A DNA stretch of 64,000 bases from Galdieria sulphuraria (taxonomy: Eukaryota > Rhodophyta > Bangiophyceae > Galdieriales > Galdieriaceae), in contig NW_005178437.1 of the NCBI RefSeq assembly GCF_000341285.1, forward strand, positions 87,822 through 151,821, written 5' to 3'. The notes under the pieces were generated by a model. The model made no database searches and was not told the origin of the DNA. It worked only from the letters and a program-made list of their open reading frames with translations. This document shows positions 628 to 64,000 of the stretch, piece by piece (position 1 is the first letter of the stretch; each line of letters opens with the position of its first letter). The translations under genes were made by a program, and so were the position numbers.

Positions 628-3600
628 TTATATCTTCCATTGAGAGAACAATAGCTCCAAAGGTTCCTTTTGTTTCTTGCTTTGTTCTTTTAACCATTCT
701 TCGAGTAATACGAATACATCTTTGCGTTTCCAAACACAGATAGATTGCGAGTCTCCTGCATTTCTACAGAGAGGTGTCAAGAAGGAAGAATGTTGAGATG
801 GAGAAATTGGTGCACNTAAATGTGATGACGATATTTGATCCAATAAGGTCGTCCATTCTTGATGTTTGTGGAACACAGAATAATTGCCGAATAAATAAAT
901 TGCACATCGAGCGCGACTCGTAAGAACATTGATTCTTCTTTCATCTCTCAAGTGGCCCGTTAACAGAGAACTTGACACCAATGAGATAAGAATGATGTCC
1001 TTTTCTTTGCCTTGAAATTCGTCCGTCGTGAAGATGGATACTGGTTGATCATGCAGTGTTGTTGAATGTTGTTCATTTGAAGCAAAACTTTGAAAGTAAA
1101 CTAGAAAGACATGTTTCAGTAATTTCTTCTGTTTCCTATAAGGAGTCAACACAGCAATACGATTCCAAGAAACATTCCAATAATGCAAATAGTGCAAAAA
1201 CTGGGCAATGGCTTTGGCTTCCATGGGATTTTCATAAGGGGAATCTGAGAGAGACGATTCGTTGATGGTTGGATTGGAAACATCAAGAAATAAAACTCTA
1301 CTACAAATGCCCTGTGGCATCCAGAAATGATTATCTTGATAAATATCATTCAATACATTTTGCTTGAATGTTACTCCATCCGTATGATAAGTGGCTTCTG
1401 TTTTTTGATAACGAAATCGATACAAATCAGCAATGCAAGGAGCAGCTCGTCCTTGTTCTTCCAACTGAATAAAAGGAAACTTCAAATGAATCAATCTGGA
1501 AAATAATGAAACCTGATGTGAAGATAGCTGTTCCAAAATGTCATTGTTTGCGGAGCGATACTGGACGATAGGAGCTAACTGCAAATCATCGCCAATCAGA
1601 ATCGTTCGTATTGGTTGATATCTGGCAAATAAAATAAACTGATTCCATTCCGTAACTAGAGCAGCTTCTTCTACTATAGCAGCCACTATTTTGGTATGTC
1701 CATCAGAAGGCCAGTGTTCTGCATATTTCATTAAAGATGCAAAGGTAGTTATTACCAACTGACAATGAGAAAGCAACTCTTTGAAATAAACAGAAAAACG
1801 TGGATGAAAACTTCGTAGTAGAGAATCACATTTTGTAAGCAAAATGCAATCTCTCAGTAAAGCTATTCGCTTCCAATTTCGACTCCTTTCCATTTCTTCT
1901 TTGCTGGAGTATTTCTGAATCGTTGCTTCTAACCAAGATAAACCTATCTGATCCAAGTATTTACTCAATAGATAGGGACATGTTTCATAGTCTTCAATGG
2001 CCTCACAAAGATTGGTCAACCAATTGTCCTCTTTAGAATGCTGATATTGTCCATATTCCTTGGCAAACTCTGACAGGTGTTTCCACAATTTGTCCCGGAA
2101 CTCCTTCATCACATAATAATGACCTTCCAATGTAAGCTGTCTGATAACCTTGTCATTGGACTGCCTTCCCAATCTTAAGATGGGCTGAAGGAGAGGATGT
2201 AATGTTGTGACAGAACGATGAGTACACAAGTCTATTCCTGGGTAGCAATGTTCTTTAGGATAACATTTCTGAAGAACCTTTTTTGCCAAATGATCAGCTG
2301 CTTCATTTGATTGAGCTACGATCATCAGAACAGAAGATGAAGCATTCTTATCTTCCTGCTGCCTGTCAACAAATCTATTTTGCAAGAAGAATCGAATGAT
2401 GCAATTAGCAACTTCTGTTTTGCCAGTTCCAGGAGGTCCTCGAATAAGAACCAGTCGTTGCAACCAACTTGCACAAAGTGCTGCCTTTTGAGCCTCGTAC
2501 AAATAGGCAAATGATGTTTCATGAGGTATATGAAACTTGTCGGAAACAACAAAAGAACAAGATGTATTTGTAAAAGTATCACCTAATTTGCGTAGATAAA
2601 CGAAAGAACGAAAATTTTCATCTACCTCAAGTTGAAAGCCAGGGATAATGGAAGCAAGACTAGAAAGAAGTCCTTGTGCATCGGGTATAAACGGATACAG
2701 ACATATTTCTTGATGAGTTTCATCATTTACGAGCATATCTAATGTTTTGCTTTCCGATAACGAAAAAGAATCCTGCGTCAGAATACTGGAGAAAAACTCG
2801 GGTATTACTTCTTGGTGTTGGTCATCATCCAAATTGGCAATCGACAAAGTGTACCAATCATAAAGCTCTTCCAAAACTTCTTGATGTATATCGTTTGGAG
2901 CTTCCAAACATATCAAATACATTGCCTTTTCAGTCTCTATCCAGTCCATCCGATCATTGGAGACAAATGTAACAGAAAATTTCCGCAAAGAACTTTGGTT
3001 TCCTTGCTTGTCATTCTTCCATCTTGCAGAATAACAAAGGCCAATCCACTGAATATCATTCCAATGCAAAGAGTCGCTACTATCCAAAAAGTTATCCATT
3101 GCATTAGACAGGAATAAGGCACCCAATCTTCCAAAAGAGTTGGTTCTGGCAAGTTCATCATCACTTCCGAGGAAACGCACTTGGCCATTATAGGAAAACA
3201 GCAAATGTCCTTTCTCTATCTGACGGCTTAAAAGTCTGTTTTGCTCCAAATGAGTAACAGAAAAGATAAAACTTCGTTCTGTTCGTATCCTCTCCTTATG
3301 TACGTTCAATGCTGAGTACATTTTGTATGCCAACTCTGCTTTGCAAATAGTGAACAAAGAACAGAGATAACTTATCGTAGAAGGATAGCAGCACGAAGGA
3401 GGAATCATACAAAGATTGTTACCCATTAGAGCATTCAAGTATGAAATATCTGGAAAACAACAGTCAGTGCCAGTAAGTTTCTTCCAAAATGATAAATGTG
3501 TTAATATCAATTGACGTAAAGAAACTTCGGATGGACACGGTGGCCCTTTTCTGCGCTTTCTCATAAGCTCCAAAATTCTAAGCAAAACAAGGAAACATAA

Positions 3601-4716
3601 TTTCCAACATCTACCTAAAGATATGCTATACTTTTTACATTGGAACATCAGAAACTCTTTCAATTTTTGCAAACAATGCTTCCAAGGATCTATCGAGTCA
3701 CTGCATTCTGAATCCGAGAAGCAAATGATAAAAATGGCTAAATACAATCCCATGGCAGAGTTTTGCAAAGAAAAATAAAACCAAAGCAAATAAGTGCTCA
3801 TATTCTCCAATTCCTCTTCGTTTTCCAGAAGATTTTCCGGAGAGGCCACAGTTACTACGCCAACCAAGTCAATGAAATGAGATAATGTCAACTTGATAAA
3901 GGAATATTGATGATTCTTTGTAGCATTGGCGATGGGTATTCTATAAGTCTCCAGAAATTTATTCCATTCTTTTCGATTCGGTTCTGTTGATAGGAAAATT
4001 CTCAAGTCACTCAGTGCCACCCTTTGTAAAACTGGAGCAATAATAGAATATATGAAATCGATATTTTGATAGCACATCATGCTTCGCAATAAATTGATGA
4101 ATAAGGTCAATTTCCAAGAAGCCGGTTTTTCCAAAGCTTGTAGATGAGATGCAATTCTTTCAACAAGTTCCTTCACAATATGGAAGGCATTATTGGGACT
4201 ATAATGATCTTTCATGACGCAAATTTGGAAAGATTCTTTGTTGAACTCGATTTTATGAAGCAATACGAAGCAAGCTGGAAATAGATACACTTCTTCCAAG
4301 CACAACGAAGAAGTGTGGTTGTTTAGTTGAGACAGCAGAGGTGCAAACCAGTTTTCCCAAGCAGCTGTTTGGTTCAACCATTTACCAACTGACTGAATGT
4401 CTTTGTTCTCTTTGATCAGATAGTTTTTAAAAATATCTTCCAACTTTTCGTTTGTTTCCTTTGAAATTCGAGACACTACGTCACTCCAAACATCCTCAAG
4501 TCCTATTGTCAATAAAAATTTGCAACTTGGTTTCAACTAACTTACCTCATGACTGATAAGATAATAAAGTACACTACATACAACAAAAGTTAGTTCTTTG
4601 TCTTGAAGGTGGATTTCAGCAGTCTTTACTGTGTGCCAATATTTATGAGCAAATGTATAAAAATTCTTCATTTGGCGCCAACTTCTTTGAGCATTTTTTT
4701 TTGGAAAACAAAGCAT
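628..4716 (-). CDS. AQR: Intron-binding protein Aquarius-like SF1 RNA helicase
   Basis: Homologue of Aquarius (IBP160/EMB-4), the SF1 helicase that binds introns in the spliceosome. Visible motifs include Walker A GPPGTGKTE, an EEAA variant of the DEAD-like motif II, GDDLQLAPI (motif III), EEQGRAAPCI (motif IV region), DEFQGKEKDIILISLV (motif V) and GHLRDERRINVLTSRAR (motif VI); the last stretch is very close to the Aquarius family. I infer a 5' exon at 4546-4716 (start ATG at 4716), joined over a 51-bp intron (4495-4545) to the long exon 628-4494. That exon contains FAHKYW, matching the conserved LACKYW of Aquarius. The splice choice was made by reading frame. The product is about 1345 residues; human AQR has 1485. 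An undetermined base at 816 makes one residue unknown near the C-terminus. Confidence 0.88.
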
Positions 4717-38145: not shown

Positions 38146-40630
38146 TCAGTGCTTCATCTCCTTTTCAAGAAACTCATGGATGCCACGAAGAATCAGAATG
38201 ACGTCTCCAGGCGCTACACCAAAGGTTAATAAAGTAGAGTCGTCCAAATATGGAAAGGTTTTTGGACTAAACACACGCAGTTGACGTGCATAGCGCTCAA
38301 TAAACGAAGCTTCCGTGAACCCACAATATTCTCTTAGGAAAGTATTCCAATCGAATGACGAAGAACTCGATGCTGCAACACTTTGTTCGCCTCGTGCATC
38401 TCCTCCTTCCACTTGCATAGCACTTTGAAGCTCTTCCATTTGCATCCTATTCTCCTCATTTGTTCTCGGTCTTATATTTCGAGTCACTCTTGAAGTAACA
38501 TTTGATTGCTCCGTTTCCAAAGATGAAACATATTCATTGGACATCGACTCAAAAACAGTTTCACACCATACTGAAAAGTCTTTAGAAAACTCTCCTCGGT
38601 TTGCTTCCCCAATTTTCCTCAACGTTTCGACATTATCTCTTCCCAAATACACTTCAAGGTTCCTTTGAGAAACAATTACCAATTGCAGACATGATCGACT
38701 ACTTTCATTCAAAGTTGATCCCGAAGAATGTTGAGTCACAAAACCACTTGCATCTTCAACAATATTATGTTCTTCGGTAGAGAAACCTACAGATTGATCA
38801 TATCTAGTACATACTACCACAAACTGAAAACGAAGTTGAACAGATGAAAAAGATTCGTCATTCAAAACGGAAACAACTCCCTTAAAAAATTGTTCGGCTT
38901 CCTCCTCAATATTTGTTTTCGAAAATTCAGTTTTGTGATAAAATTTGAATGAAAATCCAACAACATAACGTGTTTGTCCATTATGGAATACAACATATGC
39001 ATCAGGACCACTAGAATTGCCATCTTTCGGAACAAAAATACCACAACGTTGTAAATAATCCCCATAATAATCAGAAAATGAACCAGAGACATTTCTCAAG
39101 ATGGGTATATCATAAGATTTTGTTGATTCCATAGAATAAGAAACATTGTCCTGTTCAATAAAAGAACCCTGGAAAATTCCTGGAATAGCAGAATGTACAA
39201 TAGGCGAGGAATTAGAATGAAGAAAAGTTAATAAGCGAAAGCGAAAGATCTTCATAAATACAAATTCAAAGAAGACTCCTTTTGCTGTTGAAGTGTCGGG
39301 AATATAACTAAACGGAGATAAAGGAAAAAGTTCAGTAGCCTCACGGAAAAATTTATAGTTGCTATGAGCTCGCAATATAAACTCACAACAACCAATCTTG
39401 AATTCCTCGCCCAAAACTTCAGAGTAAAACCCAAAAGTTGCAACCAAATCCATCAAATAAGTTGTCGTTCCACATAGAGCAATTGCAAAGTTGATTGGAA
39501 AAACTGTCCCGAGCTGATAATTGAAAAGAACAAATTGATATCGAAGAAGGGTTGCAGAATCTAATATCTCCGGAACAATAAACGTTGTTGTCTTTCGTAC
39601 TACAGAGTGAAAAATATCATCTAACACACTTTCCATATTGTCATCGTTGATAACAGGTTGCGACAAGTCTGCAGCTTTCTCTGCTAGGGCTACTAAAGTA
39701 TTCTTTAAAATCAACGGAATACCTCCTGTCTTCTTTTTTAATAATTCTGCGAATCGATGTTGCAAGCCATCTGAGGGCAATAACCAGTCCTTCAAGGTCT
39801 TTCCACTATAAATTGCCAGCTCAAGATATTCATTAATATCGTTGAGGTTAAAAGGATTCAATCGCAACATATCGAGGCTCATGCTACTGGAGCGAGCATC
39901 AGACATACGGGCTGAGATTTGAGATGTCCTGCCTGCCAAATAGACAATTACCTTCCCTGTAATCAACAAATCACGTAAAAAACGGAAAAAATTCCGGAAA
40001 GGTACATATTCTGCATCGGGCTCGATAAATTGTTTCTCGGTAAGTTCACTATAGTATTTGGTGAGGTAACTCAGGTGGCTAAGTTCGTCTATCATCAAAA
40101 ATAAATATTGTTTCTGAAACTGTTCGAGAAGAAAATGAACAACTCCTACAGTATCAAAATTCTTTACCGTCCTCTGAGCCATCTGAAGAGCGTCCGTAAA
40201 TTCAACATTTTGTCGATAAGCAGCCAAAACTATGTTATACATCAAAGCCTCTAGAAAACTTGGAAAAGGAGCACCAGAAAAGCTCTCTCTTAGTTCTAAG
40301 ATAACTGACAAAGTGTTTTCCGCAAAGTGTTTCCAAGGCACTTTCAACTCACTCGGTTGGGGGTTATCGTTTGAACTGTGTAGTTGTTGAAAAGTCTGTG
40401 CATTGGGAACACTCACGCTCTGCAAAAATATTCAAATAGGCCAAAAAGTTTTGGCCTACAAATGTTTTGCCGGCTCCATAAATATGCGGCGCAAAACAGC
40501 AAGCCGGGCGATTGAACGAAGGCCCACCGTACGCCTTCTCCGAGAACTGAAAAAGAAACGTCTGTATAATTGTCCTGACGTCCTCTTCCCTGTCAATTTG
40601 TGGTTCTTTTAAGCGGTATATTGTTTGCAT
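38146..40630 (-). CDS. P-loop NTPase with PD-(D/E)XK-like nuclease and SAM-like domains (Crinkler/RHS-like), frame break
   Basis: A first ORF (from ATG 40630) has the Walker A motif CFAPHIYGAGKT. The frame then changes near 40,420; the remaining ORF runs to 38146 (759 codons). It holds Walker B YLFLMIDELSHLS, a sensor-like VIVYLAGRTSQIS and GGIPLILKNTLVALAEK. A nuclease-like core follows with GPDAYVVFHNG and VVGFSFKFY (spaced D...xK), then a C-terminal SAM-like helical domain (YLDDSTLLTFGVAPGDVIL). The join is either a 40-bp intron (40420-40459) or a frameshift in a T-run; the intron would cut the helix after the P-loop, so a frameshift is likelier. The order ATPase-nuclease recalls Crinkler and trypanosome RHS proteins. 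Paralogue of the gene at 44061-46174. Function unknown. Confidence 0.65.
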
Positions 40631-40872
40631 TATTCAAAGACTGATACAACTCGAAACTTTCAACAACGAATGACCTAAACACAAATTGTAAATTGGACAA
40701 ATTGATAATGTTTTTCAAGAGTTTCCAGGGCGGCTATACAGTTACTTTGGATATCGTTAAGTTGGTTTATGACACTTTAGCCACTTCAAACCTATCGAGG
40801 GATTAAAGTTATAAAAATGAAATTTCGGAATCTAAACCTCTCTTTGAACATATTTCAAGCTTTGAATTGTTT

Positions 40873-41110
40873 CTATTGTAACAGTCCCACCTTTTCCTTT
40901 GAGACGTTGAGCTCCACTTGGCTTGTATTGTCTTTTTGGATTGTCCAATATTGAATACCTCTGTTACCTTTATATACTCCATTCAAGAAATATCGTTGTT
41001 TAAACTCTGGTATCCCTTGGAAATTCGCTGTTTGTGTTTCGAGGAGATAACCAAGGCAATGGATTCCAAACAACTCAAGGTCGTGAACCTTTCATCTCTC
41101 TCGTAAATCA
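40873..41110 (-). pseudogene. Coding-like fragment without start codon
   Basis: A minus-strand frame lacking ATG reads LLETQTANFQGIPEFKQRYF and VYKGNRGIQYWTIQKDNTS before its stop. The amino-acid pattern is protein-like with beta-strand character. It is probably the end of a decayed or spliced gene. No family is recognised. Confidence 0.3.
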
Positions 41111-41460
41111 GCAGATTTTTATTGAATGTCGTTTTAGAATATTTTTCGTGCATACCTGCAGTCAGAATCTTGGTCCTTTAGGCTCTTGTCGATATCAGCC
41201 CTTGGGTTCACATTTTCAAGATAGTTTGTAAGAACCTTAACTAGATTCTTAGTCGAATCCTATTCCTTTTATTTTTGGGCACTTTAGTTATGTCCGTTTT
41301 CATTTAGGAAGATACTCTTTTTAAAGAGACGAATTGTAGGTTTGTGATCAGATTTGGAACATAAAAGACATTTCTCAGAATAGCATGCAGAAGAAATCCA
41401 GTGACTACTTCTGCCCATCTGTCATAGTTGTCTTCATAGATTGGCACCTTTAACAGGGTC
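41080..41460 (+). repeat. Diverged duplicated segment, copy A
   Basis: Collinear with 49190-49560 on the same strand. Shared words include CAAGATA...TGCAAGAAC-like sequence (41214-41235) and CATTTCTCAGAATAGCAT (41369-41386), about 160 bp apart in both copies. Neither copy has a clear long ORF. It may be an old dispersed repeat or a duplicated flank. Confidence 0.5.
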
Positions 41461-42824
41461 ATATTATTAGATAAGTAGGACGCTCGTTAATAAGTTGACG
41501 AAGCGTTTAAAGAAGATTCTGACCAGAGATAGATTGCTCCTTGCTATGATTGATCTTCCTAGACATTGTTGTTTTGATACACCTTGTAGATAGGTATTTA
41601 TATAGTTTGTCTCAATGTCTCATATCTATTCCCTTATGGATGATCGTTAATTCATTTATCACGAATTCTACCAAAAGAAAAATTTCAATAGTCATCTTAC
41701 CCAGTCGTTTTGTTGTATCGTTTTACATAAATGATAAAAGTATCTACTGAAAAAGCAAGGTGATGCTGACTATAGGAGTATTTTAGCTGTTAAAGAGACA
41801 TTTCCAAAAAATGGACAAATAACAAAAAGTTTAAAAAGTGTACAAACTTTCGGCTTATAAGAGTACCAAAAATCAGTAAAGTCTCTATGCCCAAAAAAAA
41901 CTATTATAACAGAAAGGAGTTTACATTTCAGTGTTTCTCATCATAGCAGAAACATCTGAGCAATCCTTTTACAATTCTTTTTATAGATGATTGTAAAACA
42001 TTCCCATTTAGCAAACTCTTGCAAGAAAAGATAACATTGCTAAAGCAAGATTGCAATCGTACACATAGCGTTGTTCAAATCGGCAGAAAGTCTCATTCTT
42101 TTCAATACTATATAATTAGGTAAGATTGCCGATGGACATTTACCTTGTTATGATGACAAGTGGTGGGTTCTTCGAATGGATAATTTTAAAACAAAAAATT
42201 AGGAAACAATGGAACTTAAGCTCTTGTAGTAGAAAGACTGCTCTGCTTCTTCTTCTTTTTTTTGGAAACTAGAAACATAAATGATCTAACAGTGCTATTA
42301 ACGAATACTCTTATAACTTTTCACTGTTGACTTTCATTCGAAGAGAACTATAGGGTTGAATCTGGAAAGGGACGATCTTTGCAACTTTCAATCTTTCAGC
42401 AACCGTTTGAGATACTCTCTCTATGAGCTCCTTGACTTTAACAGTACTCTAAACTTTACCCCGTAAATTATATCCCTATTTGTATGTTTTCTAATACTCA
42501 ATGACTCGATATAATCCTTGGCACTTGTGTGTAGACCCAGTCAATGAATGGCAAAGTTTGAGGTTATAACTTTTTGTGTTTGTTAACTATCCAAATATTG
42601 CATATATCAAAATATACCAGAGTAGCCATAGTAAAAACTCAATCTAACATTCCCTGAAGAGAGTAGTAGTCACAAGAAAGTTTCTGGATGACTCAAAGTC
42701 AGGGACGTTTGAGTGTAGAGCCAACGACTCAAAATGAAGCACTCCTATGTGGACAACATACTGCAAAGGAATTATACAATATCTTGCAACAATGTCAATG
42801 TGATAAGAATACATAACTAACTAC

Positions 42825-43470
42825 CTATTTGAATATGTGATAGTAATCTTTTGCAACAATACTATCTGCCAGGGCATTCCACATCTCAGCAAAGTTCCTA
42901 CCAAACAACATTTTCCAGGTACTAGAAACATACCTTTTGTCTAAATCATTGCGACAGATAACTGTTTGAAAACGATTGATGGTGCAGAATTTACAAAAAC
43001 TTTTCAATCTGACTACATTTCTGTCTCCTTTACAATTTGTCAAATAACCACTCCTCTAAAGGATTCAACGTATTACAAACTTACAATTCCAAACAAAAGA
43101 TTCTACTAAAATATTCCTTATTCTGTTAATATGAAAACCAAGCAGCTTTCGATCGATTCAACCAAGTTCCATCACCATTACATCTTTGAAGTTTGCACAA
43201 CAATCTACAACCTTTTGTCCGCCAACTTGTGGCTCTATCAAACCTAATCTAGTTGAAGACTCATTCTACCTTTCAGAAAGGTAAAGTTTATGCTTGGTTA
43301 TGGAAACTTGGGTGCTCACCCAATCACATCGGGTCTCTGGCTGAAGAAGGTTTGTTTTAGAACCTTCACAGTTTCCAAAGTTGAGAAGTAAAATACCATA
43401 GTTTAAGCCTTGCATTTTATTTTGAATAAAAAGTTTTTTGTTGTATAACTTTCCATTGCTCAAATTGAGT
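42825..43470 (-). pseudogene. Decayed gene, unrecognised
   Basis: Minus-strand coding-like stretches follow each other with stops and frame changes: NFGNCEGSKTNLLQPETRCD, then TRLGLIEPQVGGQKVVDCC, then KSFCKFCTINRFQTVICRND and FGRNFAEMWNALADSIVAKD. All lie in the same orientation over about 650 bp. Some breaks could be introns, but at least one stop (TGA after VMVMELG) has no obvious splice solution. Likely a pseudogene; the family is unknown. Confidence 0.4.
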
Positions 43471-44060
43471 CATTATCAACGTGTCTCAAGCTTCCATAGC
43501 GATCTATTTTGGTAAAAAACTGATCCAACAGCCTTTTGAAGTCATCCATTGTGAGACTATGCTGAAAAATCGAAACATTTCAGAAACGTTTCAATGTCAA
43601 CAAATATTCCATTCATACGTAGAAGAGAAGAAAGAATGTGAGATTCTAAAACAATTGGAGCAAAGACAAAGCGCTTTCTGGTGTCATATAGAGTTTTCTG
43701 TTTCTCCAATACGGACTTTTTCATGACTTGAGAGCCTTTCCCAACAAAGTTTTCTACAATTGCTTCAAAATAGCCAATCTATTGTCATAGACACCAAAAA
43801 TGACTCAACTTATTGAATACAATTGTCGTATATTTAGTATTGATAATATTCAGAATGTATTATGCAATTACATAGCCATGTAAAATGGCTAGATAAGAAT
43901 GAACTACTGTGAACCAGCCCTGTCAGCCAGCTAATAAACTCTTTTCGGAAAAGAATGTATGGTCTCCAAAGAGGCAAAAAACTAAGATGTAACCAAGTTT
44001 CAAACATACAAAAAATAGTTTATTTGCTCTTCAAAACAAAGAAAAGGACTGAGTTAGAAT

Positions 44061-46174
44061 CTATTGCCAACTTAAGAAACTGTTACGGATTCTATCAAGT
44101 AAATCTAATCCAAAATCCCAAAAAGTAGGATTATGAGAAACACAAAATGCTCTTTCAAGTCCATTCAAAATTTCGTCGTCAATCAGCATTTCCACATCTC
44201 TTTCACAAAGAATAACAAGTTCACAATTATCAGGTACTTTGAAAGAATCATTTCCAATAAACATTCCACTGGAATAACAACGACTCTGATTACCCAACTC
44301 ATTAGAAACATTCAATGATAACTTTGTACTAACGATAATAAGCATACAATGATGATAATCCATTGCACTGGATAAGACTTGATCATAAACAGGATCTAAA
44401 AATTTCTTGGCTTCATCTATAATATCTGACCAGCCAATTCCTTCCGACTTCCAACGTCCTTTACAAGCAACTCCAACAGTAAGAACTTTGGGTTCCACAG
44501 GAGATTGTAATTTGAATATAATATCAGGACTATGAGAAGTAGCGTCCAAAGGAATGTAAATAGTCTCTAAACAAAGTGTCTCTCGAATAATCTTATTCCA
44601 TTCAGTACTGGCAAAAGTTCTTCGACTCTTGTTCGATTCATTTCTTGTTTCTCTAGAACTAACAACAGACTTCATATAGTGAATAGGTGATATTGTACTC
44701 ATTGGAAGTTTCATTTGTTTCCATATTGGAGACAATTGACACAACAATTCCCTCAACTCATTTCGATTCTTTGAAGACAACATCAAAACTAGTCGTAAAG
44801 CAACAATTCCTTCAAATACACGACACTTTGAATAGAAGAAACAATCTACTGGTTCTACATCAAGTGATCCAAGAAGTATCTTTTCCAAAGAAGATACGGA
44901 AGGGTCCTTCTTGAAGATTCCAACAAATACTTTTGGAATTAGGACTTGAAAAGTATTCTGGTCAATAGGATATCGATATAGTCCCATTTCTGTTACGGCA
45001 TCATATAAAAAGGACTCCGAGGTCAATCTATCATCTACTTTAGACGGTATACGATAAAGAGCCATCATCAAAAGTAAATCAAAAACACTTTTTCTATCTT
45101 CGTCCAAAATCAATATTCGTTCCACAAATGGTTCAGCACAAATTATTCGGAAATCATAGTCATTCATACAAGTCAAACATTCTTCTTTCGATATGAAAGG
45201 CTGGTTTCTTGGTATTATATAATTCAAAAGCATATTCACAGCACGAGTCAACAAACCAGGAACTCCACCTGTACATTCCAACAACGAATCTGCCAATTCA
45301 TTTACTGAAAATGAAGAACTACATAAGACATCACAAACCGGTTCTTGAGTAGGTGTTTCAAGAAGAGTCTTTTCAAGGAATTCAACAATACTGGAAGCGT
45401 CCAAAGGTGATAAAAAAATAAAATGTAGTATGACTTTTGATACAGAAGAGACATCATTCTTAATACTTAAACCCTTGCTTTTCCCAACAACTATAAAAAA
45501 CAAGTCGGGTTCTTTGCACAATTGACTAATGATACCGAAAAAGTCATTGTAAGGTCGAATCACACCTTTGTCATTCTTCTCCAGTTCAAAAAAAATTCCA
45601 TTCGTATCAAAAACACCAACTTCATCAAATGCCAAAAAAAGATATTGATCGGAAGGAATCCCCAGAATATCTCCTGAAGACTCGGAACTAGAAAGCAGGG
45701 ATACAGAGCAACCATGTCGGAAGGCTTCATCAGTTTCAAAAAAGGTCAGCCCCAACTTGAGAGCAGGCAGCCTTTATTAAACAAATAGTAGACTGCCCAC
45801 TCAAGGTTGCGTTCTTTCAGGTCTGTGGGCTCCAACTCCTTTAAATCCGCAGAAAGCAATGAAGCCCTTTTCAGCTTCTCCAAAAAGGTTCTCCTCAAAG
45901 GGTCTGAAGCAAACGTCGACAGGGAAGTTTCACCAAACCTTTGCACCAACTCCAAATAGGTTCGGGCAAAGGTCGTTTTGCCCGAGCCAAAGAGATGGGG
46001 GGCAAATGGTATCGTCAAGCGATAGTCGCAACTACTTGTTACACCCCTGAGTTGCTCTCTGCCGCTATGAAGATAATACAGTTCTTCTGTCACTCGAAAA
46101 ACATCTCTTTCACGATCTACCACAACAGACTTAAACTTGTCCACAGCTTCCCACTTTTCATCCAAACTCGCCAT
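44061..46174 (-). CDS. P-loop NTPase with PD-(D/E)XK-like nuclease domain (Crinkler/RHS-like), frame break
   Basis: The first ORF from ATG 46174 has the Walker A motif FAPHLFGSGKTTFARTYL, closely like that of the gene at 38146-40630. The second ORF (to stop 44061) has Walker B QYLFLAFDEVGVFD, sensor-like LFFIVVGKSKG, TGGVPGLLTRAVNMLL and a nuclease-like core with HSPDIIFKL and TVGVACKGRW (PD...xxK). It ends with CELVILCERDVEMLI, paralogous to LQLVIVSQRNLEVYL in the other gene. No SAM domain is seen. The ORFs join either through a 38-bp intron (45756-45793, donor GTCTAC, weak) or across an indel. The family is only structurally defined; an effector or ATP-dependent nuclease role is inference. 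Confidence 0.65.
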
Positions 46175-47119: not shown

Positions 47120-47651
47120 CTAGCGACTCTCTTCTCGTATCTTGTCATTGCATATCATTTGAATCATAGTTGAATTCCTTCTCCTCAATAGTCGACTATA
47201 CATTTGAGGTGTTTTTGAAGGTAAACATGACTGTTTAGGTTTAAAGGCTTTTGTTGCATCCTCTTGTACGATAAACTTTGTAAAAACCACAACTTTTAAA
47301 GATATACAAGAAAGCAAACTATAAAAAGTACAAAGCTGCTTTAGAAACGAGATAACTCCAAGAGGGCTATTATCTCTTCCAATATAAAAAAAGGTAAAAC
47401 TTTTAAAAGCTCTGCAAATTCAAAGAACGATTTGTTCAGCTGCAGTTGAGTCCTACTATTTTTCTTCCATTCTCAACCATCAGCTCATTGAATAAGTGAG
47501 TCACTATACAAAAGTTCCTTGCGTTAAGCACTTGGAAGAAGACTCTTGCGAAATATAACCTGATGGGTACACTAGTAGAGGCTTCCTTTTGGATATTGGT
47601 AACGAGAATCAAAGACAACCCAACGTTTCGTTTAAAAAACGGGTCTATCAA
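47120..47651 (-). pseudogene. Coding-like fragments, unrecognised
   Basis: Two consecutive minus-strand frames look protein-like: GLSLILVTNIQKEASTSVPI with FFQVLNARNFCIVTHLFN, and further on TKFIVQEDATKAFKPKQS with PQMYSRLLRRRNSTM. Each ends in a stop; no good start or splice signals join them. They may be remains of one gene. Confidence 0.3.
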
Positions 47652-49189
47652 TAGAAGAAATGTTCATTTCTACTAGGGACAAGTCAAACTTGAAAAAGAA
47701 GAGAAACGCCTTTTTATCCAAGTTGCTCTACAGAGAATAAAAATGTCGTCAACTCGCAAGCAATATTCAGCAGAATAAGATAACACAAGTTATCTGATTC
47801 CTTTGCAGAGTCAAAACCCAAAATGATATTGTGATTGTTATCCAAACCGGTAAAGGTCTTGTTCTTTTAAATATATTGGATCAATTTCGTCTATTAGTAA
47901 AAAAGAATATAAATGTAGAAATAATGGAAAAATAAGAATCTTTCATCTCTTCTTGGCAAAGTAAAAAAGAAAGGTGAATCTTGAAATATATGTGCAAGGA
48001 GAACCAAAAGCATCACCACTTTTACTGTTCTTATAACAGTCAAAACTCTCTACAAGTTCTTTATGTAGAGAACAAAGCGTGACCCTTGTAACTTTTGAGG
48101 CTCTATCCTCCTTATCGTAAGTAGTTTGTGTACGTATTTGTGTATAGTCAAAAGTATTCCCAACCTTTGAACAGTTTTTTGTTGTAGCCTTGTCCTCTGT
48201 ATACTTTCCAATTCTAGAGTTGAATATACGATTTATTCTTCTTTATAACTCGTAATCGAACAAAGATTGTTCCTTGAGCGTAATTTGCATAAAAGGAAAG
48301 GTTCTATCTCTCACAATGCAAGCCAAACAGAGTAAATGTCAGTGAAATTGGAAAATGACCATTTTACACCTTTAAGGAGTTTTCCTTAATTTTGAGTGAC
48401 CAACAAAGAAAGGTTCTCAGATCGAGAACGAGTCAAAAGCTGGTTGTAGCAAAACCCGTTCTTGATTTGATATCAAAATAGGCTCACAAGTAGTTTGAAA
48501 TTTACCTTGCAGAGACAAGATTGATCAAACTCAACTCTGTTAAAAGGCTACAGTGTCGCTAGGGAGTTGAGAGGACCTTTGTTACGACACTGTTCTTCCC
48601 GTTTCACAACAATACTGAGACGTGAGATTGATTGTATCTAGCACACTTATTGTTCCAGAACCTTTTTAAATATCTCCAAGTGGAATATTTTCTTTCATAA
48701 AACTCACTAGTCACTCAAAATAATATATCTCCAGTGAAAGGAGACAATACAAAGCAATCCTCCTCATAACAATCCAATTAGAAATGAACACAATGGTTTG
48801 ATTGTTGGATAAAAAGGAAGGCTCAGTGAGTGTTGTCAACGCTGTGGACCTGATTCAAGTTTGCTAGTGAAACTTTTCAGACTTTAATTGCTAAAACGAA
48901 TTCGTCGTTCGTTTTAGTTGGACAAGTGAATTTCTATTATCTACGTTTCTTTTTTAAGCCCTTCAAATGTTTCTTTTAGAACAGTCCATCGATTCCTGAG
49001 CTCTGAGTTCCGTGTAGACTGTAGTTTCTTTTTAGTATGTATAAATTTTATTATCTCTTTGGAGTTTATATACTTTATGCAACACTTCTTGTTATTTCAC
49101 TTCTGGTCTTGTATGGAAATTTGAGATAAGCGTTGTCGAGAAGAGAGCAAAGACAAAGGAATTCAAGCTGTCGTTGAGTGTTGGTAGAT

Positions 49190-49560
49190 TAATCAATTAG
49201 TTGTTTCACAAGTTTGTTTATTTCTATCGATAATTGTTTCAGAGCAGTTTTGCGTATGTATTAGCAGTTGAAAGTCTAATCTTGTAGTCTGTTGTTGAGA
49301 AACAGTCTTTGGGTTGATATTTCCAAGATATTCTGCAAGAACAAGAAACCAGTCAGACTCTCAGTTGAGTCTTTTAGTCAGTACACAGAATTATATTCCG
49401 TATAGTAGTTTTTTGCCTTCTATATGACTCTTTTCACGATGGAAAACTCGGTCTGTAACTCTGCAACAGGCATTTCTCAGGATAGCATAGGAAAGTCTTG
49501 AGTCCATCATCGCTTATTTTCAATGATTGTTTGTATTGTTGTGCTTTTAGATCAATTCTC
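49190..49560 (+). repeat. Diverged duplicated segment, copy B
   Basis: Partner of 41080-41460, same order and spacing of shared words (49320-49342 and 49470-49488). See that entry. Confidence 0.5.
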
Positions 49561-59960: not shown

Positions 59961-61919
59961 TGCTCGAATATGAAAATGGATTGAAAAAAGGCTATATAAT
60001 AACGACAGTGTTGGATTATAGGCTCAAGACTATGGAAGAAATGAAACTTGGGAATATGAGTTGACTCTTATAAGGAGATGAAGCGTTTTGACTTTTAGAA
60101 GATGAGAAAACTCTGTGCAAAAATGAGCGAGTCAAATAAAATGTATAAAACTATATATTTATTGGAAAATGGAAAAGGTACAAAAAAATATGAACAACGT
60201 CATTCGAGTCAAAGTTGGTGTCGCAATCTTTTTTCCACTTTTTAGAAGACTTTTCTTCAAGGAAGCTATTTCAAATATAACAAGATATCGAGAGAGACGG
60301 TTGAAATGATCCATGAGATGGATATAGATAAAACTTTCATTTATTGAACGATTAGTTTTATTGTATGGAGTTTTCAAAACAAGCTCAAGTGTTATTTTTC
60401 CATTTTCGCACCATTTTATGTATGGTTCTACTCCTTTATGAACAGAGAAACACTAGGTGTCATTTTTTTTTGCAAATTTTCCTTCGATAAATGATACCTC
60501 TGTTTTGTCTGGAAAATTCAATTTTAAGTTCAATTGTTTCCTGTTAAAATATGTTTCAAATACCTACTTGAAGGTACTTATTTGTATGCCTTAACAAAGA
60601 AAACCATTTTATGAACTTTGACAAAGTCAACTTGTACTTTTTCATGTCCTAAAAGATCCTCTGATACTGTTTCATAACTTTGTGTCTATTGTAAATTTCA
60701 GTCTCGTACGACTGCGAAATAGTTTAAACTTTGGAATATAAAAGGTAAAATGGTTTTTTGTTTCCGTGAAAGAAATAAGAAAACCTTACAAAATTTGGAA
60801 AGGGTTTGATTGTCGAACAGTAGTCATTTTGAGGTGTTGTATATTTGATATGGACTTTTTTCAACTGACTAGCAGTCCTTTGGTAATTGGCAATAGGATA
60901 AGAAGCACCATAATTATTGTTTCGTTCAGAGTTGCCAACGATCTTACTTTACCTCATTCTGGATAAAAGGAATCCAATAAATAACTTTCAGTAGACCTTT
61001 CACAAATGAAAACTACATAAAGTTACATCCCATCCATTTATTCATAAAGCTTTCTATTTACTACTCGCATATTCTTATTCGTTTGAGAATGGACTGGTCC
61101 ATACATTTCACGAATTCTTTGTTCACTGGCTTTTACTCAATTGACCAACATTGCCAATTGTTTATCAAATTTCATTGACTTTTGCTTTTCATAGAGACTC
61201 CGAAATTCGTTGTTCCGACTACTTTTCCGTTTCACTCGAAAATATTCAGAGTGTTTTCAACAACTGCAAAGCTATTAGATATACATCCTATCTATCATCA
61301 TTGACTCAATTTTTGTTTCTTTTAAACTCAAAAACAAGGTGTCAAGACTATATCGCTCTAAACTACACACACACATACATATATGTATATATATTAAAGC
61401 AATCAAGTACCATATAACCAAAAAAGAGAGAGAGAAGGTTTACTTTGTAGCTCTTTGAAACTATCCAAGGAAAGCAAGGTACAAAGAAAGGAAGAAAGCA
61501 GTAGACTTGACAATCCATACTGAGAAGAAAAAAAAAACATTTCCCAAAGTGTGTACACTCAAGTTTATGAATTTTCTTCGACACCAAGATCAGATGGAAA
61601 CAGCTCTACGAACGAACGAACAAAACCTGGTCAACTTGCACTTGGAAGAGATTGTTCTAGGTACCGAAACAAATGACTTTGATGGTGTAAAGGTAGTTAT
61701 TTCAAGAAGCACGAACAATTCATATAAAACAGTACAGTATATTTGGATTGCCAGACGCAAGACTAAAGAATTGTAGTACACTATCAATTCGTTAACTCAT
61801 TACTCTTTTCTTGTTTCAACAAATAGAAAGACAAAAGAGTATTTTTTATGATGATTCAGAAGCGAACTGATAAGAAGTTGGAAAAACAATCTCACTCTTG
61901 CAGACTTTCACATCATGCC
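59961..61919. other. Gene-poor AT-rich spacer
   Basis: Nearly 2 kb with only short ORFs of low complexity. A microsatellite of AC and AT units lies at about 61361-61395 and a GA-rich stretch at about 61421-61437. An ORF at 61507-61776 (89 codons, with LVNLHLEEIVLGTETNDFD) looks somewhat protein-like but has no recognised domain. Confidence 0.5.
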
Positions 61920-62265
61920 GATGTAAGAATGCACTTTAGACAAGTTGCTGGTAGGTGAATCAAAGACAAGTTTTAACTATTGAAGAAGACTTATACAAGG
62001 CAAGTGACATAAATAGGAGTAAGTTCATTGTGCATTCTCAAGTTGAATTTGGCTTGGATAGTGTTGATAGAATGAAATGGGTTGTTTGAATTACAGTATA
62101 TTGTCTGTCCATTTTTCATAAGTCTTTTTTTCCCTCAAGTTGTTTTATACTAGCACACGAAAACTATCCCATATGTTAGTGGAGTTATTCATATCCTAGA
62201 CTTTGTCTCATATAGTATTTATATATCGTCGATAGTCTCTTTAACAGCAAATACAAAATGATCAT

Positions 62266-62343
62266 ATGGATTTATTAAAAGAATTTACCCAAATAGGTTT
62301 GACAAACAAAACACCAACTAGTACTAGTAGTCAGTTATCTTAA
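62266..62343 (+). pseudogene. Interrupted copy of the small ORF at 56794
   Basis: Begins MDLLKEFTQIGLTNKT, clearly the counterpart of the intact ORF in copy 1, but meets a TAA stop after about 25 codons. Downstream similarity continues (GAATCATAATGAGAGAAAAT), showing decay after duplication. Confidence 0.65.
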
Positions 62344-62681
62344 CGCAAAAAGGATAACCTAGCTGATAGTTTCCTTGGCAAGAATCATAATGAGAGAAAA
62401 TCCCTACATTCTCTTTTCATAGCTGCAGATAGCTTTTACTATATAACAAGTCGTCGACCACAGCTCATTGGAGTGCATTCTTTTTACAAATTACTAAATA
62501 ATGGATCATATTGCTATTCTATTCTGTGAGACGAGAGTTTTGATTTTGTTATAGGGTGTGATTCTGCAAAATATGATGAGCGCCAGTATACAATACACAA
62601 TTTTTAGTGATTTTTTCTGCTAATGGGAAAGATGGGCAATTTGAAAAGAGAGGCCGATTGAAAATGGGCCCGCGCAATTTT

Positions 62682-63040
62682 GATTTGAAAATTGCCATTC
62701 TGGGTGTGGGGTGGGAAAGAATGGGTAAATTGGAAATGGGAGAGAGTGGGGAAATTGCGATGGGGGAAAATGAGTGGGGAAAGGGGCCAATTGGGGCCAA
62801 CCCCAAGGTGATCGTGATTTGAAAATTGCCATTGTGGCGGGCTGGGAAAGAATGGGTAATTGGAAATGGGAAAGAGTGGGGAAATTGCAATGGGGGAAAA
62901 TGAGTGGGGAAAGGGGGTGAGGAAATTGGAGAAGAGGGGCCAACCCAAAGGCGATTGTGTTGATTTGAAAATTGCCATTATGGATGCGGGGAAGAATGGG
63001 TAAATTAGAAATGGGGGCATTTGAAATTGAGGACAGTGTG
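62682..63040 (+). repeat. Tandem G-rich repeat, three units of about 134-146 bp
   Basis: Units start at 62682, 62816 and 62962 with GATTTGAAAATTGCCATT. Each has runs of G (GATGGGGGAAAATGAGTGGGG). The G-rich strand is the plus strand, pointing to the right end of the window. Related to 57202-57413. Confidence 0.88.
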
Positions 63041-63779
63041 CAAAGAGGACTGAGTGTGAATTGAAAATCTTGGGATAATACATACAGGAAGGGTGTTTGA
63101 AAAATTCCAATTCGAAAAGCAAAAGATTGAAATTTGAACTTTAGTTATATTTTATGAGATAGTAGTAGTAGAAAGTTCAATTACATGCTGTTCACATAAT
63201 GTTTCCATGCTTTCATAATACATTTTTACTCTAAAATAATCTTCATATTAAATTTCTAAAGACAATATAATAACAATTTGATATAATTGATTGAAACATT
63301 GACAACATTATTAAAAAATTTTATAATTGACTTAATTTTCAACTGTTACAATTAAATGTTTAAAGTAAATATTATATAAACACAAAAAACTCAACAAAGC
63401 AAAAAAGAATTAATTTTAATGAGAGTATATTTATACAGTATCCATTTTATTGACAAAAATAAATAATTTTTAGTTTAGTTCGACAATATTTACTAAAAAT
63501 ATACACAACAAAAAAAACGATCAGCAAAATTTGATAGCAACCTTGACATGCTATACTACAGACACGCCATAAACGCAAGGATTATTTTTTTAAAAAATTA
63601 ATAACATCAAAAGTGACAGCTAACCTATAAAAAAAGAGGACATAGTCGTAGTATGTATAGAAAGAAAAGTTTTTTATTCAAAGAAATAGACATATTGAAA
63701 AGGATCAAGTAGAAGATTCAAAAAAAAGTAACTGGAAAAAACAAAGAATTGCATCTGGTAAATTGTCATTTGATGAGAG

Positions 63780-64000
63780 AATATGTATGGGGGAATGAAA
63801 TGGTCAATTGCGGGTAAAGGATGGTAGTGCAACTTTGGTTTGAAAATTGTCATGGGGGAGTGTTGATGGAGGAAAGAAGGGGTAAATTAATTGGGAGAGG
63901 GTTTGGAGCAAATGTAAATTGGAAAATGCCGTGGGGAAAATGAGTGGGGGAAAGGATTGGGGCCAAATTGGAGAGGGGGCAATTCGAAATGGGATGGACG
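63780..64000 (+). repeat. Degenerate G-rich repeat at the window edge
   Basis: Contains TTTGAAAATTGTCATGGGGG, GGGGAAAATGAGTGGGGG and GGATTGGGGCCAAATTGG, which are recognisable but diverged pieces of the same unit. The block continues past the right edge. Between 63041 and 63780 the sequence is very AT-rich with no gene seen. Confidence 0.7.

Follow-up and report, generated by a model that had tools for sequence, protein, structure and literature searches.

The 'archaeal ATPases' of the red alga Galdieria sulphuraria are the best-known cited case of a gene transfer adapting a eukaryote to heat. In the available parts of the published accounts, these ATPases adjoin every telomere and are understood as genes of archaeal descent that multiplied as an adaptation to heat and acid (2013 work, cited in PMC6629376); authors writing in 2019 contest the archaeal origin and limit the temperature response to a patchy subset, and a paper on a lichen alga indicates that other eukaryotic 'archaeal ATPases' exist. 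The literature drawn on here comprises PMC6629376, PMC9812998, PMC5289972, PMC551604, PMC6652019, PMC7563717 and PMC11003980. We analyzed two such genes, A and B, in a stretch of 64,000 nucleotides of G. sulphuraria DNA (the window; contig NW_005178437.1, positions 87,822 to 151,821), whose right edge is the end of the contig, at a distance of about 18 kb from gene B and about 23 kb from gene A. As a previous sequence-only reading of the window had surmised, both belong to the published subtelomeric family: the annotated product of gene B (P0053, 'archaeal ATPase [Galdieria sulphuraria]') is 98% identical to gene B as read here, and the genes, the large family and the subtelomeric setting are the same.

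In the parts of the published accounts at hand, these genes are treated as ATPases, with no mention of a nuclease-like domain, of classes A, A' and B or of an exchange of cassettes and tails, and no report of a nuclease domain or of cassette exchange in this family was found in the literature searched, which excludes the 2013 Science paper. Compared with those accounts, the combinatorial structure described below is new, as is a probable nuclease whose fold is predicted. The sequence comparisons show a nucleoside triphosphatase (NTPase) and a C-terminal domain common to A and B, kept residues of catalytic type, a whole-gene ratio of non-synonymous to synonymous substitution rates (dN/dS) below 1 and a reassortment of modules. 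We give about an even chance to the reading that A and B encode nucleases switched by nucleoside triphosphate (NTP), arranged as polar arrays at chromosome ends, with exchangeable modules and a role in conflict.

Likeness to described systems

Crinkler-RHS (CR) proteins also carry an NTPase followed by a restriction-endonuclease-type domain, which in Galdieria is a prediction, and the trypanosome RHS genes are likewise described, in the available parts of the sources, as many mosaic and partly subtelomeric copies (PMC5289972, PMC7563717). The Galdieria proteins differ by the absence of a header, by a PD-xxK-E site and by polymorphic parts located between Walker A and Walker B and in the SAM tail. 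In an alignment with a stand-alone archaeal ATPase, the NTPase of B is matched from about residue 12 onward, and only about 11-20 residues lie ahead of the conserved DRE motif, which leaves no space for a header domain at the N-terminus. The RHS profile PF07999 gave no match in a search where the controls were silent too, and Pfam scans at E<=10 returned no RHS. The sequence-only reading had assigned A and B to the Crinkler/RHS plan; the succession of an NTPase and a predicted restriction-endonuclease domain stands, the header does not, no relation of sequence was found in these searches, and the likeness is architectural only.

Cfr10I, NgoMIV, Ecl18kI, SsoII and PspGI are prokaryotic restriction enzymes. 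In these PD-xxK-E enzymes, as in the predicted Galdieria domain, a PD is followed by a K on the next strand and by an acid on the following helix (PMC551604, in the part available), whereas the Galdieria domain is fused to an NTPase, is eukaryotic and gives no sequence match. With the STAND receptors (CED-4, plant NLR) the Galdieria proteins have in common the NTPase fold, the GxP-type motif and the fusion to an effector; they differ by showing no repeat sensor domain, by a variable part that consists of a short cassette within the NTPase and by the absence of any match to a known defence family in PADLOC. Avs-type defence proteins are also STAND receptors, and the Galdieria genes themselves are reportedly the 'archaeal (STAND) ATPases' of Schoenknecht 2013. 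The yeast Y' subtelomeric elements are polar, adjacent to telomeres, spread by recombination and encode a nucleic-acid ATPase, in their case a helicase and not a nuclease; we know of no comparable cassette exchange for Y'.

A common NTPase, a predicted nuclease and exchangeable modules

Comparison of the A and B family profiles with hhalign gave an alignment of 624 columns (E 9.9e-35, 21% identity), indicating homology of A and B over the greater part of both genes, far beyond the P-loop, with both the NTPase and the C-terminal domain in common. This is in agreement with the paralogous ATPase-nuclease pair proposed from the sequence alone, the nuclease part being so by prediction. A third class, A', displays about 25% identity to A and occupies three loci in the G. 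sulphuraria genome. Across 13 aligned rows of A, A' and B, the R and E of the DRE motif, the G, G and K of Walker A, the D and E of Walker B and the TGG.P motif are invariant, as are, in the C-terminal half, E455, D551, K572 and E588 (P0054 numbering). The STAND/AAA+ hallmarks are present (Walker A, Walker B with DE, GxP-type motif) and the NTPase is predicted to be of this sort, which would assemble on meeting its target.

In the C-terminal domain, the PD, the K and the third acid are in register and conserved in A, A' and B as in the PD-xxK-E variant. With gaps counted as misses, the B rows retain E455 in 49/49 and D551, K572 and E588 in 47/49 each, and the corresponding E, D, K and E are found in 33, 33, 29 and 33 of the 34 A rows. 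These catalytic columns outlast the split between A, A' and B. In the structure model of B, the order of the elements is compatible with the alpha-beta-beta-beta-alpha-beta core of PD-(D/E)xK enzymes, the listed structure matches covering the NTPase part instead. The C-terminal domain is therefore predicted to be a PD-(D/E)xK nuclease of the PD-xxK-E kind, as the sequence-only reading had supposed from its motifs, all of which were found where it had placed them (Table 1).

Overall this is not a dead family, and intact copies are common: 23 of the 29 readable A loci hold long open frames (>=780 amino acids), and 17 of the 64 B rows are stop-free over nearly the full query in a six-frame genome search. 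Among the 23 open A loci (252 pairs) the pooled dN/dS is 0.59, with 0.44 for the NTPase, 0.66 for the nuclease and about 1.1 for residues 96-135, a pattern that, for coding sequence, shows moderately strong constraint with one permissive or diversifying segment.

The C-terminus of A carries the SAM-like domain that had been noticed on one of the two genes. Of 34 members, 5 match Pfam SAM_1 there at E<=0.1, the best at 5.1e-4, other tail types being unrecognised by Pfam, and the A model reaches a predicted local distance difference test (pLDDT) score of 83-91 over residues 761-819. Identities of tail and body are uncorrelated (r 0.02, 561 pairs of A and A' proteins). The A' protein P0049 and the A protein P0008 possess identical tails on bodies that are 27% identical, and even between species, for G. 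partita A' P0052 and G. sulphuraria A P0006, 74% of the tail is in common for a body identity of 27%. On the A body tree (31 of the 34 rows), the six tail types need 18 changes, where shuffling gives a mean of 20.2 and a value as low in 26 of 200 cases.

In B, the exchangeable part is a cassette of residues ~123-178 between Walker A and Walker B, for which four classes (c1-c4) were defined by motif. Every class is found in both B1 and B2 bodies; c2, c3 and c4 are common to G. sulphuraria and G. partita, and c1 occurs in G. sulphuraria and, less surely, in G. phlegrea, whose c1 rows stay apart on the cassette tree. For proteins of identical class but differing subfamily and species (55 pairs), the cassettes are 57% identical and the nucleases 47%, and for proteins of differing class within one subfamily and species (121 pairs), 44% and 91%, respectively; the cassette figures are partly so by construction, because the motif set the classes, and the nuclease contrast is not. 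After removal of 12 of the 49 rows (unclassed or damaged cassettes), the classes require 18 changes on the B body tree (shuffled mean 19.7, as low in 42/200) and 3 on the cassette tree. The body trees sort by species (4 species changes), which fits what concerted evolution would give. At the level of sequence, these comparisons show that the B cassette and the A tail reassort among paralogues and are common across Galdieria species, almost independently of the body.

Chromosome-end arrays and the copies in the window

Six-frame searches of the genome returned at least 96 rows for A/A' and at least 64 for B, which after hand merging correspond to at least 44 A, 3 A' and at least 60 B loci (107 in all). 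Fifteen loci on contigs below 50 kb or of unknown size were dropped, and 86 of the 92 kept are found no more than 35 kb from a contig end, where a fraction of about 0.40 is expected by length; a contig end need not equal a chromosome end. This is in line with the position near a chromosome end ascribed to the pair. Transcription is directed away from the contig end in all 86 near-end loci; since a duplicated end retains its polarity, these loci do not count as 86 separate events. The other six loci, of three classes, are internal. Gene orders recur, such as telomere-B-A and telomere-B1-B2-A'.

The flanking DNA is also repeated. A non-coding block of 2 kb (47200-49200) recurs at no fewer than 39 other places in the genome, with 84-98% identity except for one 581-bp piece at 79%, and the last 2.2 kb of the window recurs in 88 rows, so that the gene-poor DNA is at least in part a conserved subtelomeric repeat. 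The stretch 61800-64000, at the contig end, is G-rich and partly made of tandem repeats. On the telomere side of gene B, about 800 bp are continuous in 10 further B copies, and on the opposite side at least three unrelated classes of flank are met soon past the stop codon (9 B copies). Over the gene body the window is matched by each of the 29 other A loci, and beyond 40337, into the 5' part, by only 6. These patterns fit subtelomere exchange with breakpoints at the genes and not a transposon of fixed ends; a simple DNA transposon was rejected for the lack of constant ends, inverted repeats and target duplications having had no dedicated search.

The same observations bear on the chief rival of the NTP-switched nuclease, a self-spreading subtelomeric nuclease. 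The product of such a homing element would break subtelomeres devoid of the array, and break-induced replication would copy the array out to the telomere; a single polarity, a common telomere side and a differing centromere side are what this model predicts, in agreement with the uniform direction, the two flanks of B and the telomere-side repeat block. But ordinary subtelomere exchange yields an equal polarity and flank pattern without any nuclease, the polarity is inherited by the copies, and old shared cassettes are not required by homing. We regard this explanation as unlikely, and place most weight on the NTP-switched nuclease.

Both copies in the window have broken reading frames. Introns between GT-AG sites in A and B were rejected, since near-identical copies are single open frames: gene A shares 95.1% identity over 2417 aligned bases with the copy on contig C92 (L006), one open frame of 819 amino acids, and gene B shares 94.1% over 2104 aligned bases with the copy on C52 (L055), also one open frame. 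A single base, within a short C run, separates the frame of A from that of its relative, and the frame of B breaks near 45,750. By comparison with these copies the frame changes look like damage and not introns, and sequencing error could also be their source. With the introns, an idea of intron shuffling was dropped; the N-terminal types of A still stand. The term 'decaying' given to the region holds for the two broken genes and not for 47200-49200, which is a recurrent repeat. On the whole, what the sequence-only reading observed is confirmed and its interpretation is partly supported.

Table 1. Features of genes A and B and of the neighbouring repeat, in positions of the window.
Feature	Position	Strand	Basis or remark
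Gene A: NTPase, predicted PD-xxK-E nuclease, SAM tail	38146..40630	-	frame broken near 40407
Gene A Walker A, FAPHIYGAGKT	40463..40495	-	motif location
Gene A, stretch directly preceding Walker B	40142..40222	-	copy alignment; several copies unalignable at DNA level; position equivalent to the B cassette
Gene A Walker B, LFLMIDELS	40078..40113	-	motif location
Gene A strand ending GR or GK	39928-39951	-	motif location
Gene A TGG[IV]P	39715-39735	-	motif location
Gene A predicted nuclease core: FFEF helix, SSGPD, GFSFK, EEEAEQF	38884..39273	-	conserved columns; structure model poor there
Gene A PD segment	38989-39015	-	motif location
Gene A xK segment	38941-38967	-	motif location
Gene A SAM tail, exchangeable C-terminal module, type T1	38149..38355	-	Pfam and tail comparisons
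Gene B: NTPase, predicted PD-xxK-E nuclease	44061..46174	-	frame broken inside cassette; annotated product P0053
Gene B Walker A, FAPHLFGSGKT	45974..46006	-	motif location
Gene B tract matching B2-type paralogues L054 and L059	45463..45886	-	blastn, 78-79% DNA identity; rest of gene without match to them
Gene B cassette region (NLEWAVYY ... IPSDQY), exchangeable module	45642..45808	-	cassette comparisons; holds the frame break
Gene B Walker B, YLFLAFDEVG	45615..45644	-	motif location
Gene B strand ending GR or GK	45480-45500	-	motif location
Gene B TGG[IV]P	45258-45275	-	motif location
Gene B predicted nuclease core: RVFEG helix, SHSPDIIF, VGVACK, IIDEAKKF, MLIIVSTKL	44319..44822	-	conserved columns and structure model
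Gene B PD segment	44514-44537	-	motif location
Gene B xK segment	44451-44477	-	motif location
Subtelomeric repeat block, telomere side of gene B	47200..49200	+	recurs at 39 or more other genome places

Some further copies and neighbours were observed. A B-A-B cluster (C1:182713-191899) and a B copy (C1:54002-56017) are internal to their contig and could be a relic of an end fusion or an assembly join. Matches to the SAM tail beyond the listed loci (C47:2323, C1:53010, C38:149372, C38:61 and C64:12683) could be further or broken members. In G. phlegrea, the gene model P0128 (1156 amino acids) fuses a B protein to an A' N-terminal part, which suggests that the B-A' neighbourhood also exists in that species. 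Elsewhere in the window, on the minus strand, an open frame at 19162-20739 matches a C-5 DNA methylase (E 3e-29) and, just below the cut-off, a PHD finger (2.3e-4), and an open frame of 1302 amino acids at 628-4536 holds AAA_11/AAA_12 helicase domains. No Rfam match was found in the window. A search of PDB sequences with A, B and the nuclease part gave nothing credible, and Foldseek against viral models gave, among the matches listed, AAA+ ATPases only, a list filled by the NTPase and silent on the nuclease.

Weighing the explanations

An NTPase of assembly type, an effector nuclease, exchanged modules kept across species and subtelomeric amplification together correspond to the plan of conflict and recognition systems. 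In such a system, the cassette and the SAM tail would set the choice of target and partner; engagement of a module would lead to NTPase assembly and to release of the nuclease on DNA, in the service of an intragenomic or antiviral conflict, and subtelomeric recombination would be the engine that spreads the copies and mixes the modules. More tentatively, and with somewhat less than even confidence, the modules could be old alleles maintained across paralogues and species while the body is homogenised, the end-located, combinatorial NTP-switched nucleases being a eukaryotic recognition system, antiviral, directed against non-self or serving a self-homing drive, that was mistaken for heat-adaptation ATPases.

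Several points weigh against a conflict nuclease with exchangeable modules. The nuclease fold rests on predicted topology and residues. None of the profile libraries recognises the C-terminal domain, and the fold lacks confirmation by a structure match because the NTPase part filled the fold lists, the absence of a match over the nuclease part among the matches listed being uninformative for that reason. The A model is poor (pLDDT 49.2), and in 5 of the 34 A rows another residue (4 T, 1 N) stands in place of the nuclease lysine. Both window copies are broken. In residues 96-135 of A, dN exceeds dS in 131 of 235 pairs, which fits relaxed or diversifying selection equally. By its sequence the cassette keeps some dependence on the body: on the body tree, the c1 rows group more than expected by chance (4 changes where chance gives 6.6, as few in 3/500), and the cassette-body correlation is weak but present (Mantel r 0.17, p 0.002). 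A cassette of about 50 residues is also small for a receptor.

The published explanation, ATPases acquired from archaea and amplified for heat and acid, with a C-terminal domain devoid of nuclease role, appears improbable to us. The nearest structure to the NTPase model is the archaeal 2qen, and at E<=0.1 Pfam ATPase_2 matches 26 of the 49 B rows, with 2.5e-4 as the best value; both are compatible with it, but the first B row scores 18.4 bits where the cut-off is 33.2, and the E, PD, K and E of the C-terminal domain are conserved. As a sign of archaeal origin in the sequence, the ATPase_2 similarity is weak. Among the matches listed in three protein searches (52, the best 120 of 137, and 24), all were from Galdieria. 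Contigs of bacteria, archaea and viruses scanned by pattern, and phage records, yielded no relative; remote relatives could escape these searches, and the scan of prokaryotic contigs reaches only fairly close ones. An origin from viruses was also discarded, no relative being found in IMG/VR by pattern or in phage records. A search of the genome with ATPase_2 gave three places, all below the cut-off, which we take from their reading frames to be ClpB-, Rad17- and MutS-like genes unrelated to this family; they were rejected as members. The disputed origin and the patchy temperature response reported in 2019 also speak against heat adaptation.

That the family is mostly inert subtelomeric litter, gene conversion keeping the copies alike and making functionless mosaics, would account for the many broken or partial copies, those of the window included, and for the concerted evolution visible in the body trees; the long open A frames with a dN/dS below 1, the stop-free B rows and the persistence of the catalytic columns across the three classes leave this explanation only a slim chance. 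A dedicated factor of telomere or subtelomere processing, placed beside telomeres for dosage or recombination, would agree with the fixed position and polarity and with the published placement beside every telomere (in the part of the account available), but is in our opinion scarcely probable, dozens of copies with shuffled, ancient cassettes being unexpected for housekeeping and three classes having copies internal to contigs.

If A and B are indeed nucleases with exchangeable recognition modules, the story of this family would shift from adaptation to heat to genome conflict at chromosome ends, and Galdieria would provide, in a free-living organism, a counterpart of similar plan to the Crinkler and trypanosome RHS families, whose own roles have yet to be settled.

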